NCBI GenBank assembly: GCA_031287565.1
Contig: JAITSS010000069.1
Span: 1 to 64,000 of the forward strand
Source: Desulfobulbaceae bacterium
Lineage (GTDB): Bacteria > Desulfobacterota > Desulfobulbia > Desulfobulbales > Desulfocapsaceae
DNA: 64,000 nt
Reading direction: 5' to 3'
The position numbers were made by a program, and so were the translations under genes. Of the stretch, positions 23,645-30,614 are shown piece by piece. The notes under the pieces are model-generated. The model was not told the DNA's origin, searched no databases, and worked only from the letters and a program-made list of their open reading frames with translations. The stretch's first letter is position 1. Each line of letters begins with the position of its first letter.

Positions 23645-24516
23645 AGACGAAAAGACTGTTCATCTTCGCGCCGGTTTTGCTTCTGCTCTATGCCGGATTA
23701 TTTATAGGTCAGGATCGACTGTTCGCCGGGCGTGAACAGACCCTGGGTTTCGCGCCGCCGGAGCCATTTATGCGCGCCTGCGTTGGCTATTGGCGGCAAC
23801 TGGCCGCGGAAACGATTTTCGTCAAAACCGCCGTGTTTCTGGGCGGCGTTAAACCCGGTAGCGACAAGATGGCTTACGCCCCGGCCCTGGCCAATAATTA
23901 TCGGCAGATTACCCTGTTGTATCCGGAATTCCGCGACCCGTATTTTTTCACCCAGGGCTATCTTCCTTATATCAATCAGGATGCGGCCAGAGCGGCCAAC
24001 GAAATTCTGGCGACCGGCCTGACCGCCTATCCGGATAGCTACGAGTTACGGTTGTTTCGCGGCTTTAATTTTCTGAACAATCTCAACGAGCCGCTCAAGG
24101 CCGCCGAAGTTTTTCAGGAAGCGAGTAAACGCCCGGAAGCGCCGCCGATTTTTGCCTATTTGGCGGCGCTGTTTTCCGCTGACGGCGGTGATTTGCAGGC
24201 GGCGCTGATTACGCTACGCGCCTTACATCAAGCGGAGAACGACCCGCTGGTTACAGAACGCTACGAGAAAGAAATCGGCCTGATGGAAAGGGCTATCGGC
24301 CTGTTTGAAGCTGCCAAACGCTATCAGGCCGAGCATGGCGAATTTCCCGATATTCCTGAACGGTTGATTCCGGCATACGTCACCGAAATTCCGGAATTCA
24401 TGCCCAATTTTGAACTGGTCTGGCAGCCGCCGCAGGTGCGATTAAAGCGCCCGGACCCGGCTAAGCTCCAGCGTTACAAAGAGCGGCATGAAAAGAAAGG
24501 CATTCCTTTTTTGTGA
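23641..24516 (+). CDS. Membrane-anchored TPR-like protein, PilG-like
   Basis: 291 residues. One N-terminal membrane helix (about 5-22) is followed by a periplasmic helical domain. ALANNYRQITLLYPEFRDPYFFTQGYL and PDSYELRLFRGFNFLNNLNEPLKAAEVFQEASKR have the spacing of tetratricopeptide repeats. The C-terminal part (about 220-290) has a YQAEHGEFPDIPERL stretch like those in type II secretion and pilus-associated proteins. Start and stop overlap both neighbours by four bases. Its position between an ABC-2 permease and a pilin gene matches PilG, the third member of the Myxococcus pilus ABC set. Similarity is by architecture, not confirmed by alignment. Confidence 0.7.
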   Translation: MKTKRLFIFAPVLLLLYAGLFIGQDRLFAGREQTLGFAPPEPFMRACVGYWRQLAAETIFVKTAVFLGGVKPGSDKMAYAPALANNYRQITLLYPEFRDPYFFTQGYLPYINQDAARAANEILATGLTAYPDSYELRLFRGFNFLNNLNEPLKAAEVFQEASKRPEAPPIFAYLAALFSADGGDLQAALITLRALHQAENDPLVTERYEKEIGLMERAIGLFEAAKRYQAEHGEFPDIPERLIPAYVTEIPEFMPNFELVWQPPQVRLKRPDPAKLQRYKERHEKKGIPFL

Positions 24517-26367: not shown

Positions 26368-27030
26368 ATGAACAACGATATTGATTTTGAAGAAATTTTA
26401 GCCCAATACCGCGCTCAGCCTTACGAATTGGTGCCCATCCAGGCCGTGCATACCGGCGAAGTGCATTTCCTGGCGCGGCAGGACGATGAAGCCGCACCCG
26501 CTTCCGGCGAATGGTTGCAGATCCCCGGCACAGCGCTCTATGAAATAGTCAGAGAAAAAAACACCAAGCGAGTCGCCGCCACCACCAACGGCCAGGTCTC
26601 GATGATTCGTCACGAGCTGGAGGGGCGCTTCGTTGAGGCCGGGGAGACTCTCATGGAGATTCGCCATCCCCTGAAAAAAAAGGAAATTATCGAGGCGATT
26701 CTGCGTGAGGTTTTGCTCCTGTTTCCGGCCCCGGAAACGGCCAAGTATTTTTTCGCCATTGATGTGCAGAGCTGCATCGACAAGAAGGGCGCGCGTTCGG
26801 TCACGGTCGATCCGGGCGACGAAATCCTCACCATGTCTTTGATGAAAAGGGATACACCTTTGTACTACCACGGCGAGCGCGGCGTGCTCTATTCAATCTA
26901 CTTTACGCCAGGTTTATCGGTGGCGCGGGGTGAGCCGCTGATTGGCGTGTGTCCGCCGGAAAAGTTGCCGCTGATTCAGAAGATCATCACGCGGGTCAAG
27001 GCCGAATGGGATGCCGCTGGACGCGCCTGA
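26368..27030 (+). CDS. Biotin/lipoyl-carrier-like protein without attachment lysine
   Basis: 220 residues. Two segments have the glycine pattern of lipoyl/biotinyl half-barrels: NGQVSMIRHELEGRFVEAGE (about 74-93) and GERGVLYSIYFTPGLSVARG (about 171-190). Neither is followed by the AMKM-type loop that carries biotin, so it does not look like a normal biotin acceptor. The middle region (about 108-165, including FFAIDVQSCID) is unassigned. The next gene, a BirA-like protein, overlaps it by 20 bases, so the two are translated together and probably act together. It could be a regulatory or scaffold homologue of the acetyl-CoA carboxylase carrier. An inverted arrangement with a hydroxyacyl-CoA dehydrogenase upstream gives a weak link to acyl-CoA metabolism. 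Confidence 0.6.
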   Translation: MNNDIDFEEILAQYRAQPYELVPIQAVHTGEVHFLARQDDEAAPASGEWLQIPGTALYEIVREKNTKRVAATTNGQVSMIRHELEGRFVEAGETLMEIRHPLKKKEIIEAILREVLLLFPAPETAKYFFAIDVQSCIDKKGARSVTVDPGDEILTMSLMKRDTPLYYHGERGVLYSIYFTPGLSVARGEPLIGVCPPEKLPLIQKIITRVKAEWDAAGRA

Positions 27031-27958
27031 CGATATTTTCATCCGGAAAACCGCGTCGTTCCTGCCTGATTTATTGCGGGAAGAGACGCGCCGCCGTCGG
27101 GGCGATTTCACTGATTCCGATTGCCAGGTCATTCTGAAACGCGGCGGCCATATTGGCGCGACGCTTCTCCACTATGACCGCCTGCCCCGCGCCATGGCGG
27201 CGGCGCGGCGGCGCATTATTGCGGCGGAAAGAGAAGGCCAGGCGAGCGACGGCGGCCTGGTGATAGTCGCTGACCAGCTTTCGGAGTCGAAGGGACGATT
27301 TCATCGCCTTTGGCACGCGCCCGAAGGCGGTTTGTGGGGATGCCTGGCCCTGGCCAACACTATGCTGCCCGAATCACGCGCCCTGTTGTCGCTGGCGGTT
27401 GGCGTCGCCGCCGCTGAAACCGCGCGCGTCTTTGCCGCCGACGTGGCCTTGCGCTGGGTCAACGATGTGCTTGCGCGCGGCCGCAAGCTGGCCGGGTTCC
27501 TCATCGAAAGCTTTTCCACACCGATTTATCGCGAGGAATTTGACCTGATTGGTTTCGCCTTCAACCTCAATAACCAGGATTTTCCCGCCGATTTACGCGA
27601 AAACGCCACCTCGCTCGCTTATGAAACGGGCCAGGAAATTTCTTTGCCGTATTTCCTCGCCGTGTTTCTGGTCAAATTGCGTTGGAATTGCGGCCTGCTG
27701 CTGCATGAAGAAGAACGGCTGCTGGCGGCGGAACCATGCCAAACCAGGCATTCATTGCTTGCCGCCTGGCTTTCCCTGACCGACACAATTGGACGTCGCC
27801 TGCGCTACGGTTTTGATGTCTTCAGCAATCCGCAATACGAGGCCACAGCCACCGGCATCGACGAGCGCGGTGGCTTGATCCTCGAACACCAGGACGGTTG
27901 GCGGCGCGTCGAATACAGCGGCGAAGTGCGCTATCTTGAAACGCCAATTCCATGCTAA
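27011..27958 (+). CDS. BirA-like biotin-protein ligase family protein
   Basis: 315 residues. The biotin-ligase core is recognisable: VIVADQLSESKGRFHRLWHAPEGGLWGCLAL (about 85-116) corresponds to the family segment that binds biotinyl-AMP, and LRWVNDVLARGRKLAGFLIE (about 151-170) to the KWPNDV...KIAGILIE catalytic segment. Key positions differ: the usual GRGRRGR is SKGRFHR and KWPND is RWVND, so the Lys that contacts the adenylate is Arg. A C-terminal SH3-like domain (about 265-310) is present; there is no N-terminal DNA-binding domain. Active, divergent ligase or inactive paralogue cannot be told from sequence. Together with the upstream carrier-like protein it forms a two-gene unit. Confidence 0.72.
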   Translation: MPLDAPDDIFIRKTASFLPDLLREETRRRRGDFTDSDCQVILKRGGHIGATLLHYDRLPRAMAAARRRIIAAEREGQASDGGLVIVADQLSESKGRFHRLWHAPEGGLWGCLALANTMLPESRALLSLAVGVAAAETARVFAADVALRWVNDVLARGRKLAGFLIESFSTPIYREEFDLIGFAFNLNNQDFPADLRENATSLAYETGQEISLPYFLAVFLVKLRWNCGLLLHEEERLLAAEPCQTRHSLLAAWLSLTDTIGRRLRYGFDVFSNPQYEATATGIDERGGLILEHQDGWRRVEYSGEVRYLETPIPC

Positions 27959-28009
27959 GGAAACGCTGATTATTTCTTCCATCATTCGGACTGAGATTGT
28001 CTGTTACCT

Positions 28010-28045
28010 TTGACAATTCTAAAGTATCAATTTAGAATTGCCGCA
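28010..28045 (+). promoter_or_regulatory. Promoter within an inverted repeat; likely leaderless start of the DUF4143 ATPase
   Basis: TTGACA (28010-28015), 17 bases, TAGAAT (28033-28038): a near-perfect sigma-70 promoter. Its -10 hexamer ends only six bases before the ATG at 28045, which puts the expected transcription start on or next to the start codon. A perfect 10-bp inverted repeat, CAATTCTAAA/TTTAGAATTG with a 7-base spacer (28014-28040), covers the end of the -35 and all of the -10, an arrangement expected of an autoregulatory operator. No ribosome-binding site is seen. Confidence 0.65.
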
Positions 28046-29211
28046 TGAATTATCAACAACGAACTCTTGAAAATGAAATTGCCCGCGCCGCCAAGTTTTT
28101 TCCTTGCGTGATTTTGACGGGGCCGCGTCGTTCAGGGAAAACCACGCTTTTGCGGCATTTGCTTCCGGATTGCCAGCACGTGTTGCTGGAAGACCTCGAT
28201 GTGCTGGCGCGCGCCTCAGCCGACCCCAACGCCTTTCTCGATGCCTTGTCGTTCCCGGTTATTCTTGATGAAATCCAGAATATTCCCAGCCTGTTTTCTT
28301 ACATCCGCTCTCGAATTGATGCCGACCCGACGCAGAAAGGGCGTTGGTTCCTGACCGGTTCTCAGGAAGCGCCGTTGATGAAAGGGGTTTCCGAGTCCAT
28401 GGCGGGACGCGCGGCCGTCTTCACATTGCTGTCGTTTTCAGCCGAGGAATCGTCTGCGGTATCGCCGTTCCTCGGTGGTTTTCCGGAGGTGCTTGCCGCG
28501 CCAGAGGTCGCCGACATTTGGTTCCGCTCCTACATACAAACCTATCTTGAACGGGATGTGCGCGCCATCGCCTCCATCCGCGATTTGGCGACTTTTCGCC
28601 GCTTTCTCGGTCTTCTCGCAAGCCGTTGCGGTCAGATGCTGAACAAAACGGATATCGCCGCGCCGCTTGGCGTCAGCGTTCCGACTTTGACGCAATGGCT
28701 TTCCATTCTCGAAATCACGGGTCAGATCATCCTCGTTGCGCCGTGGTATGAAAATTACGGCAAACGGCTGGTCAAAAGCCCTAAACTGTATTTTACCGAT
28801 TGTGGTTTGGCGGCCGCGCTTTTGGGAATCCGCAGCGAAGAAATGTTACTCAATTCGCCATTTCGGGACGCCTTGTTTGAAGGGCTTGTCGCGGCGGAAG
28901 CGCTGAAACTTCGGTTGGGGCGTGGTTTGGAGCGCGGGCTTTATTATTTCCGCGACCGACAGGGATTGGAAGTCGATTTCATTGTCGATAACGGCAACGG
29001 AAAACTTGTGTTGCTTGAAGCGAAAGCCACAAAAACGCCGATGCCAAGCGATGCTCGCAACATGACGCGCCTTTTGCGAAACATCCCGGCGAGCGCGCAA
29101 TCGCGGAATTTTGTCGTGTGCGACATCTCCGCCACTCAGTCAATTGCCCTTTGTCCAAACATCCGCGCCTTGCCTTGGCGACTCTTGCGGGAAATCTTGC
29201 CCTTGGATTAA
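28045..29211 (+). CDS. AAA ATPase with DUF4143 domain
   Basis: 388 residues. The N-terminal P-loop ATPase has Walker A TGPRRSGKTT (27-36), Walker B PVILDEIQN (about 71-79) and a sensor-like WFLTGSQ (about 101-107). The middle holds a winged-helix-like region (about 192-240, LASRCGQMLNKTDIAAPLGVSVPTL). The C-terminal DUF4143 domain has YFRDRQGLEVDFIVD and LLEAKAT (about 305-330), spaced like a PD-(D/E)XK nuclease fold. Members are common, often solitary and probably mobile; their role is unknown, with suggestions of DNA-linked regulation or toxin-antitoxin-like behaviour. It has no operon partner here, and the promoter arrangement suggests self-regulation. Confidence 0.88.
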   Translation: MNYQQRTLENEIARAAKFFPCVILTGPRRSGKTTLLRHLLPDCQHVLLEDLDVLARASADPNAFLDALSFPVILDEIQNIPSLFSYIRSRIDADPTQKGRWFLTGSQEAPLMKGVSESMAGRAAVFTLLSFSAEESSAVSPFLGGFPEVLAAPEVADIWFRSYIQTYLERDVRAIASIRDLATFRRFLGLLASRCGQMLNKTDIAAPLGVSVPTLTQWLSILEITGQIILVAPWYENYGKRLVKSPKLYFTDCGLAAALLGIRSEEMLLNSPFRDALFEGLVAAEALKLRLGRGLERGLYYFRDRQGLEVDFIVDNGNGKLVLLEAKATKTPMPSDARNMTRLLRNIPASAQSRNFVVCDISATQSIALCPNIRALPWRLLREILPLD

Positions 29212-29253
29212 AAAGCGTGGGATGCGTCCTGGGATTCATCACGCTGTCGCCGT

Positions 29254-30012
29254 TCAATGGGCCGTCAGTTGCGTAAACAGTCGCCACGAGACGATTTCCC
29301 GGCCCAGGACCGCGTTGCCGTAACGCCAGAGGATATTCAGCGCTTCGACCAGCGGCGCTTCGGCGATTTTCAGGCGGTGTAAGCGGGGCAACGGCGCGGC
29401 GCGGCAGGAAACGAGGAATTTCGCCGTGCCTGGTTGAATTGGCTGGCCGCCGTGGTCGCTGGCGCACAGCGGGCAGATGATGCCGCCTCTCGCGGTATTG
29501 AACAGCCAGGAAGGGCCGGTGGTCATCGTTTGGCCACATTGGCGGCAATGTTCCAGTTCCGGGCGATAGCCGATATGCTCGTAGAAGCGGCTGAGAAATT
29601 GCGCCGTCACCACGCGGCAGTCCGCGCCCTGGTCAAAGCGCGCCAGCGCCCACAGCGTCAGGGCGAACAGTTCCGGGTCGGCGTCGCCCTCATGCGTGGT
29701 GATCAGCAGAAATTCGCGTAGGAGCGAGGCGGCGGCGTAGAGCGCGATATTCTGTCGGATATGGACAAAGCTGTTGACGAGTTCCGCCTCTTCCAGGAGC
29801 GCCAGGCCCCGGCGCGGCGGCCGCAGGAAGACATCCAGCAACGTAAATATTTCTAACTTATTGACGAATCGGCGTTTGCTTTTGCGGGCGCTTTTGGCGA
29901 TTGTCTGGATACGTCCGAATTGTCGGCTGAACAGCGAGACAATCAGGTCAGCCTCGCCGTAATTGCGCTGGTCAAGGACAATCGCCTGGCAGGAAAACAC
30001 CTGGCCGGACAT
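29254..30012 (-). CDS. recO: DNA repair protein RecO
   Basis: 252 residues, usual for RecO, which binds single-stranded DNA and SSB and loads RecA with RecR. The N-terminal OB fold begins SGQVFSCQAIVLDQRNYGEADLIVSLFS (about 2-29). GLALLEEAELVNSF follows at about 69-82, and the zinc-binding CRQCG plus CPLC pair lies at about 156-160 and 180-183. It directly follows the HTH/RodZ-like gene on the same strand (five bases), after surA, an order known from Desulfovibrio-type genomes. Confidence 0.9.
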   Translation of the reverse strand: MSGQVFSCQAIVLDQRNYGEADLIVSLFSRQFGRIQTIAKSARKSKRRFVNKLEIFTLLDVFLRPPRRGLALLEEAELVNSFVHIRQNIALYAAASLLREFLLITTHEGDADPELFALTLWALARFDQGADCRVVTAQFLSRFYEHIGYRPELEHCRQCGQTMTTGPSWLFNTARGGIICPLCASDHGGQPIQPGTAKFLVSCRAAPLPRLHRLKIAEAPLVEALNILWRYGNAVLGREIVSWRLFTQLTAH

Positions 30013-30017
30013 CGAAA

Positions 30018-30614
30018 TCAGCGCTCTCCGTTCAGAGTGACGAGTGTCTTCTTCTTTTCGTCGGTGCGGCGGATGACTTTGCTGGTGTTGGGGATGCGGA
30101 AATGTCGCTCGCGCTGCAACGAGCGCATCTGCACCAGGTGGATTTTTTCCCGGATAACCATGACCGGGTTGACTTCAAAACGCCAACAGAGCAGGGCGGC
30201 GAGAACGGCCAGCGCGACGATGATGATAATGAAGGTTACAAATGGTTGGGCATGTCTGGCGCTGGCCATGTGGTGGGTCGCCGCCGCCGCATGGATGGCT
30301 GAACCGCCTGCCTGAGTAGACAGGCCGCCGTGTTCTTCCGCCGCGCTGTCTGCGCGCCGCCGTTCTTCGCCATACCAGTTGACGATTCGCTGATCGTTTA
30401 AGGCCAGCGACTTGGCGTAGAGGGCGTAAAAACCACGGGCGAAGGCGTGCGCGGGCAGGGCCGCGTAGTTGTCCGCTTCCATCGCCCTGAGAATCGCCGA
30501 CGAAATTCTGGTGCGCAGGCATAAGGCCTCGACCGTCATTCCGGCTTCTTCTCGTTGTCGGCGCAGATAATCCCCAAGACTCTGGGTTTCCTGGCTGTCG
30601 CTGTCTTCAAGCAT
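30018..30614 (-). CDS. Helix-turn-helix membrane protein, RodZ-like
   Basis: 198 residues. The N-terminal XRE-type domain has the RodZ pattern: SLGDYLRRQREEAGMTVEALCLRTRIS (12-38) then AILRAMEADNYAALPAHAFARGFYALYAKSL (about 40-70). A linker leads to one membrane helix at about 124-144 and a short basic outer domain (about 145-198). RodZ links MreB to the cell wall elongation machinery; this protein has the cytoplasmic HTH and the transmembrane part, but its outer domain is shorter than in E. coli, so it may be a reduced RodZ-like protein. It lies between surA and recO in a likely operon. Confidence 0.8.
   Translation of the reverse strand: MLEDSDSQETQSLGDYLRRQREEAGMTVEALCLRTRISSAILRAMEADNYAALPAHAFARGFYALYAKSLALNDQRIVNWYGEERRRADSAAEEHGGLSTQAGGSAIHAAAATHHMASARHAQPFVTFIIIIVALAVLAALLCWRFEVNPVMVIREKIHLVQMRSLQRERHFRIPNTSKVIRRTDEKKKTLVTLNGER

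Follow-up and report, generated by a model that had tools for sequence, protein, structure and literature searches.

The gene and its setting

The window, that is, the whole stretch of 64,000 nucleotides that was analysed, carries an AAA_14-DUF4143 gene that stands by itself, with a biotin-ligase-like gene on one side and recO, in convergent orientation, on the other. Both domains pass their Pfam cut-offs (80.2 bits for AAA_14, with a cut-off of 27, and 154.1 bits for DUF4143, with a cut-off of 28.1), and this combination is presumably the one classified as COG1373. All seven PADLOC models of PDC-S01 also match the protein, with a best E value of 9.6e-95. A PHROGs search with the same protein returned no match, and a sequence search of the PDB nothing convincing.

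Table 1. Positions in the window of the gene, its predicted regulatory elements and the residues discussed in the text
Feature	Position	Strand	Details or basis
-35 hexamer TTGACA	28010-28015	+	35 bases 5' of the start codon; position matched in relatives
-10 hexamer TAGAAT	28033-28038	+	17-nt spacer from the -35 hexamer; six bases to the ATG at 28045
Predicted operator	28011-28043	+	13-bp arms 28011-28023 and 28031-28043, 7 nt between them, axis at 28027
AAA_14-DUF4143 protein, 388 aa	28045-29211	+	ORF, Pfam, PADLOC PDC-S01
Walker A GPRRSGKT, residues 26-33	28120-28143	+	sequence; invariant columns
Walker B D75/E76	28267-28272	+	sequence; invariant columns
Residues 211-217 (SVPTLTQ), start of the wHTH recognition helix	28675-28695	+	co-vary with half-site positions 11-14
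R305-Q306 turn, nuclease-like domain	28957-28962	+	co-vary with half-site positions 2, 3 and 5
PD-(D/E)XK motif: E309, D311, E325, K327	28969-29025	+	conserved columns and fold

The full-length structure model has a mean pLDDT of 93.6, and residues 262-388 modelled alone reach 94.4. For residues 1-261, the nearest solved structures are those of two archaeal ATPases, PABY2304 (2qen; Z 15.4, rmsd 3.1, 237 residues aligned) and SSO1545 (2fna; Z 14.2, rmsd 3.4, 238 aligned), whose record titles name no function and whose alignment is limited to the ATPase and winged helix-turn-helix (wHTH) part. The wHTH recognition helix spans residues 212-224 in the predicted structure. The PD-(D/E)XK fold of residues 262-388 is supported by structural matches to Can2, McrC, restriction enzymes and Hjc; the likeness extends over 124 aligned residues for Can2 of the Can2/Card1 group (Z 9.5, rmsd 4.5) and over 122 for McrC (Z 9.1, rmsd 3.5). 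Can2/Card1 are activated by cyclic oligoadenylate and McrC by McrB, whereas the window protein has no domain for such an activation. Over 63 aligned rows, E309 and D311 are invariant and E325 and K327 are conserved in at least 90%. From this fold and these kept residues, the protein is a putative nuclease, which would cut DNA. The turn formed by residues 305 and 306 joins two strands of this domain (299-304 and 309-315) in the predicted structure.

In 7 of 10 relatives, including a genome of the same genus (G001), the biotin-ligase gene adjoins recO and the locus holds no DUF4143 match; the window thus carries the gain of a single gene. The closest proteins, 70-78% identical, belong to one Desulfobacteraceae, one Anaerolineaceae and three Lentisphaerae records, the first of which shares its phylum with the window's genome, and copies with up to 78% identity are scattered in several phyla. 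Relatives are also found in 8 phage and 381 plasmid records, all of them distant (<60% identity). One genome of the window's order (G045) yields 42 matches to the window protein, mostly on separate contigs. In Thermus parvatiensis (L231), the annotation splits the gene into an AAA piece and a DUF4143 piece that overlap, perhaps because of a frameshift.

No conserved partner gene was found: in flanks of up to about 1.5 kb, no open reading frame is common to more than 3 of 34 loci. The original prediction had likened the gene to mobile toxin-antitoxin genes. This likeness is not supported, since the gene stands alone, a flanking open reading frame recurs in at most 2 other loci of the 34 and PADLOC lists the protein as a single-gene defence candidate; a toxin-antitoxin reading was rejected for lack of a conserved adjacent partner gene in these loci.

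Promoter, palindrome and start codon

The best promoter-like site between positions 24000 and 34000 is TTGACA-17-TAGAAT, with 11 of 12 matches to the consensus. The coordinates in Table 1 bear out the initial claim that this promoter ends six bases before the ATG, and its hexamers predict a transcript start at 28044-28046. Six promoter-like sites are present in the same interval as compared with 3.9 +/- 1.7 in shuffled sequence, so that the promoter match taken singly is weak evidence. A perfect 10-bp inverted repeat had also been reported over the promoter. It is indeed present (arms 28014-28023 and 28031-28040, 7 nt apart), but its size was understated: it forms the core of a longer predicted operator, whose extent was set by alignment with relatives and in which 11 of the 13 pairs are formed in the window's copy. 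In the 93 nt around the start, 100 dinucleotide shuffles never equalled the inverted-repeat score (p 0.010, which is the floor of this test). By itself, the single locus shows barely more than chance; the arrangement goes beyond chance because it is found again in relatives. Even when up to 3 mismatches are allowed, the 2.7-Mb genome has a single copy of the 31-base site. An RNA hairpin or riboswitch was considered and rejected, since no Rfam match was found in 27000-30100 and a transcript from the predicted start would not include the repeat.

The family-wide comparison started from 176 loci located by homology, of which 17 were dropped (duplicates, fragments, no start, redundancy, short upstream region) and 159 kept. 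Start codons were picked by homology to the window protein, ignoring the promoter, and 263 genes taken from these loci and from the window served as controls. A TTGACA hexamer with at least 5 of 6 matches lies at -40 to -33 in 72 of the 159 family genes, exactly at -35 in 42 of them, as compared with 16 of the 263 controls. The distance from the end of the -10 hexamer to the ATG is 6, 7 or 8 nt in 36, 23 and 19 family genes, against 10, 2 and 3 controls. Shine-Dalgarno cores are depleted (26/159 versus 81/263). As judged from geometry, the gene would be leaderless: the promoter places the start at the ATG, and no Shine-Dalgarno sequence precedes it.

Inverted repeats are likewise enriched, both at p<=0.05 (67/159 versus 19/263 controls) and at p<=0.01 (36/159 versus 11/263). 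A dyad scan of fixed geometry detected 105 of 160 genes (controls 7/263, shuffles 16/800); the remaining 55, about a third, fall below the palindrome cut-off. With the pure dyad, scored without the core term, 77 of the 160 genes reach at least 12/16, against 6 of the 263 controls and 6 of the 800 shuffles. In these 77 strong-dyad loci, the axis has two preferred positions before the ATG, at 17-20 bp (26 loci), which is between the hexamers, and at 37-40 bp (29 loci), which is at the -35 hexamer.

The layout of promoter, palindrome and ATG is a family trait, shared by relatives from several phyla. It had been suggested that such an arrangement might be general in this family, and the search of homologues, on which the original prediction had staked itself, found it present in relatives: the leaderless geometry recurs in the 159 genes as compared with the 263 controls, and so does the palindrome covering the promoter. 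Leaderlessness is not universal, since some of the distant copies, in particular the Firmicutes-like ones, have a leader with a sequence resembling a Shine-Dalgarno motif. Eight such Firmicutes-like loci (L056-L060, L205, L208 and L209) have promoter repeats together with this leader. On another distant branch, L162, L167 and L161 carry perfect repeats of up to 19 bp, of other sequence, near the ATG and surrounding a TTG-containing spacer.

Covariation of the operator with its own protein

The close subfamily consists of 34 non-redundant members with TTGA(C/G)...(G/C)TCA palindromes. The operator ends 1-3 nt before the ATG in 31 of them, and 29, 45 and 47 nt away in the other three. Two close relatives, L236 and L239, have their palindrome 45-47 nt from the ATG; in L236 a second promoter-like pair of hexamers adjoins the ATG, with no palindrome there. 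In the first 23 members, the arms pair in 82.9% of cells as compared with at most 46.2% for slid axes, and 24 two-sided changes are counted against 13.5 +/- 3.0 in shuffles. In the slid-axis control, pairing amounts to 80.6% at the adopted axis and to 37% with the axis off by one. The operator class changed at least twice on the protein tree between TGAC..GTCA and TGAG..CTCA, the TGAC class having arisen at least twice. Residue 305 follows this switch: all 11 C5-G31 operators go with R (K once), and all 20 other operators with data go with Q, E or H, 3 more lacking the region. In the first 23 rows, columns 8, 257, 291, 305 and 336 fitted the classes, and only 305 stayed after adding relatives. 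In one member (L237), the palindrome has changed to a longer, perfect one, TGTGGTGAAATTTAAA/TTTAAATTTCACCACA, and residue 305 is E, which would fit the adoption of a new site.

The scan was extended to the whole family by computing, for every half-site position against every protein column, the average-product-corrected mutual information. Four of the 105 scored operators were dropped beforehand, leaving 101 (effective number 46); the left and right half-sites of a locus were counted separately and are not independent. The highest Z values were obtained for the residue-position pairs 306-2 (7.9), 217-14 (6.2), 213-12 (5.8), 211-13 (5.8), 305-3 (5.3) and 212-11 (4.7), with 3.4 for 305-5. Every pair with Z of at least 4.7 links either residues 211, 212, 213 or 217 of the wHTH helix with positions 11-14, or the 305-306 turn with positions 2-3. 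The wHTH residues 211-217 thus track the inner half-site and the 305-306 loop the outer one. The positions tracked by these two parts lie about 10 bp apart, that is, one turn of DNA, which is consistent with reading from the same side of the helix. Recognition by the wHTH alone was rejected, since 305 stayed in the close subfamily and the family-wide scan gave the helix together with the turn.

The pairings can be read as a code. When residue 306 is R, K or H, position 2 is G in 26/26, 11/12 and 8/8 half-sites, respectively; N goes with A (26/30), Q with T (53/56) and D with T or C (22/24). Position 11 is T in 65 of 68 cases when residue 212 is V, and G in 45 of 56 when it is H. Such residue-base pairings, for example Arg, Lys or His with G and Asn with A, are textbook chemistry. 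Left and right halves alone each recover 306-2, 305-3, 213-12 and 211-13, and 306-2, 217-14, 305-3, 213-12 and 211-13 persist after removal of the close subfamily.

The Z controls are noisy, with values of up to 5.4 for permuted operators and up to 6.6 for flanking DNA, found in scattered columns, many of them in the ragged C-terminus. Since these controls were not clean, the rule was fixed beforehand and tried on new loci, taken from Chloroflexota and Acidobacteriota: 44 were located and 42 used, of which 5 were redundant, leaving 37, with 28 over the palindrome cut-off. The -10 hexamer of these held-out loci also peaks at a gap of 6 (15 hits in 37 loci). The matches clearly exceed those expected from base content (in brackets) for 306-2 with 29/34 (10.7), 212-11 with 38/40 (16.6) and 213-12 with 31/36 (16.4), and are weakest for 305-3 with 24/38 (15.3) and 305-5 with 19/30 (12.4). 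In total, 141 half-site matches were obtained in the 28 loci, whereas 10,000 permutations that moved whole loci averaged 71.3 and never exceeded 103. Taken singly, the values for 305-3 and 305-5 were reached in 149 and 100 of the 10,000 permutations, those of the other three never.

Because its pair distances ranged from 37% to 92% identity, a test on nearest pairs gave a weak result, with 306-2 in 16th and 217-14 in 1239th place of 3210. Among distant pairs, residues 306, 305, 212 and 211 top their positions at 25-40% identity, and 306, 213 and 211, not 305, at 40-60%; the remaining positions are topped by unrelated, mostly near-invariant columns. When the scan was confined to the 35 loci that share one operator position, 306-2 was the only pair to pass.

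The operator thus changes symmetrically and coevolves with two DNA-facing parts of the protein, the coevolution being seen on the held-out loci as well. The self-regulation that had been suggested for this ATPase is strongly indicated by this coevolution: the operator overlaps the gene's own promoter and co-varies with the DNA-binding residues of its own product. A second DUF4143 gene of the window's genome (L001) has its own, different dyad, with a score of 15.0, 57 bp from the chosen start, and its protein carries K305-S306. When paralogues of one genome are compared, operators and 305-306 residues differ in most cases, as if each gene regulated itself alone.

Proposed regulation, alternatives and known systems

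The reading that appears likely is that of a horizontally moved single gene whose protein binds the palindrome, represses its own promoter and is translated from a leaderless message. This self-contained unit would encode an AAA+ ATPase with a wHTH and a PD-(D/E)XK nuclease-like domain, which, as a symmetric dimer or a higher oligomer, would bind the palindrome over its promoter and exclude RNA polymerase, a negative autoregulation. Within each half-site, the inner part would be read by the wHTH recognition helix, and the outer part, at a distance of about one helical turn, by the 305-306 turn. When the protein is scarce, as in a new host, or taken off the operator, perhaps by invader DNA, transcription would begin at or beside the ATG, and the message would be translated without a leader. 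Binding of the protein to its own operator is strongly suggested by the coupled sequences; repression and leaderless translation are proposed. Since the promoter lies within a palindrome that co-varies with DNA-reading residues of the same gene, autorepression of the leaderless gene by its product is very probable throughout the family.

A palindrome of this kind could instead serve the nuclease domain as a site for cleavage or homing, the element moving by cutting at matching sites, with repression secondary or absent. The PD-(D/E)XK motif is kept, a loop of the nuclease domain reads the site according to coevolution, and single-gene insertion with scattered copies in several phyla would fit such movement; this explanation is nevertheless improbable, since the site is found only once in the genome, before the gene itself, the axis keeps to preferred distances from the start codon, centred on the promoter, and inspection by eye of the 3' boundary and of the empty site displayed revealed no operator-like copy. 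It is equally unlikely that the protein activates its own promoter, or activates and represses it by dose like the C proteins of restriction systems. Coevolution does give binding specificity and not its sign, and the two operator positions lie about 20 bp apart relative to the promoter, but an operator whose axis lies at -18 to -20 spans both hexamers, which are so close to the consensus (11/12) that no activator is needed.

That ordinary AT-rich promoter DNA would by coincidence hold a palindrome at this spacing, or that a host regulator binds there, is hardly credible. An inverted repeat in 93 nt is not rare, as the 11 of 263 control genes with p<=0.01 illustrate, but this one recurs in relatives, changes symmetrically in pairs and co-varies with residues of its own protein, held-out loci included.

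Autorepression remains the favoured reading, and regulation of a DUF4143 gene in nature is on record. In Thermus thermophilus, the DUF4143 gene TT_P0211 rose 6.6-fold with a plasmid in an Ago+ strain, so that such genes can be induced; it adjoins another induced gene (PMC4406477). A bolder extension can be offered tentatively, as possible though doubtful. Each PDC-S01 member would have a private two-module code for reading DNA, and its nuclease would stay locked on its own promoter until an invader releases the protein, which would both free the nuclease and open the leaderless promoter; so compact a cassette could work on arrival in unrelated phyla. If true, the operator would be a repressor site and a safety catch in one.

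More generally, an uncharacterised family becomes quickly testable once its operator, start point, symmetric site and residue-to-base code can be predicted. The coevolution of its turn suggests that a nuclease-like domain reads sequence, and the compact arrangement of promoter and operator offers a simple reason for the movement of the gene between phyla. Full-text searches, which reached only a minority of subscription papers and preprints, brought up no functional study of DUF4143 and no published report of the promoter-palindrome-leaderless layout for DUF4143, COG1373 or PDC-S01. Self-repression is known; as far as searched, it is new for the AAA_14/DUF4143 family, or with a turn of a nuclease domain in the reading head.

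Among known systems, the window protein is placed in AAA_14/DUF4143 and PDC-S01, and not in toxin-antitoxin systems. PDC-S01, a candidate phage-defence system, is said to rank fourth in frequency among the defence systems of prokaryotes, with 29,494 bacterial and 9,986 archaeal systems (PMC12988326), although most PDCs are unvalidated as defence (PMC12988326, PMC13356809), and the window gene may serve defence. As reported for PDC-S01 and S27, the window protein is an ATPase fused to a PD-(D/E)XK domain, whereas the accessible text of that description gives no regulator, operator, leaderless start or DNA specificity (PMC12988326). The nearest working analogue would be the homing endonuclease I-TevI, a transcriptional autorepressor: as is proposed here, the nuclease lowers its own expression from an operator that overlies its promoter (PMC2988022). 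I-TevI is a GIY-YIG enzyme of a phage intron, a single enzyme with the homing site as a second target (PMC2988022). In contrast, the present family combines AAA+, wHTH and PD-(D/E)XK parts, has a palindrome for each gene, and no second site was found in the genome.

Type II toxin-antitoxin operons and C-protein restriction systems self-regulate through a palindrome at the promoter. What the window gene would share with them is a negative or biphasic self-regulation of this type (PMC12255303). These systems comprise at least two genes, with a separate small DNA-binding partner, whereas in the window one gene would do it all.
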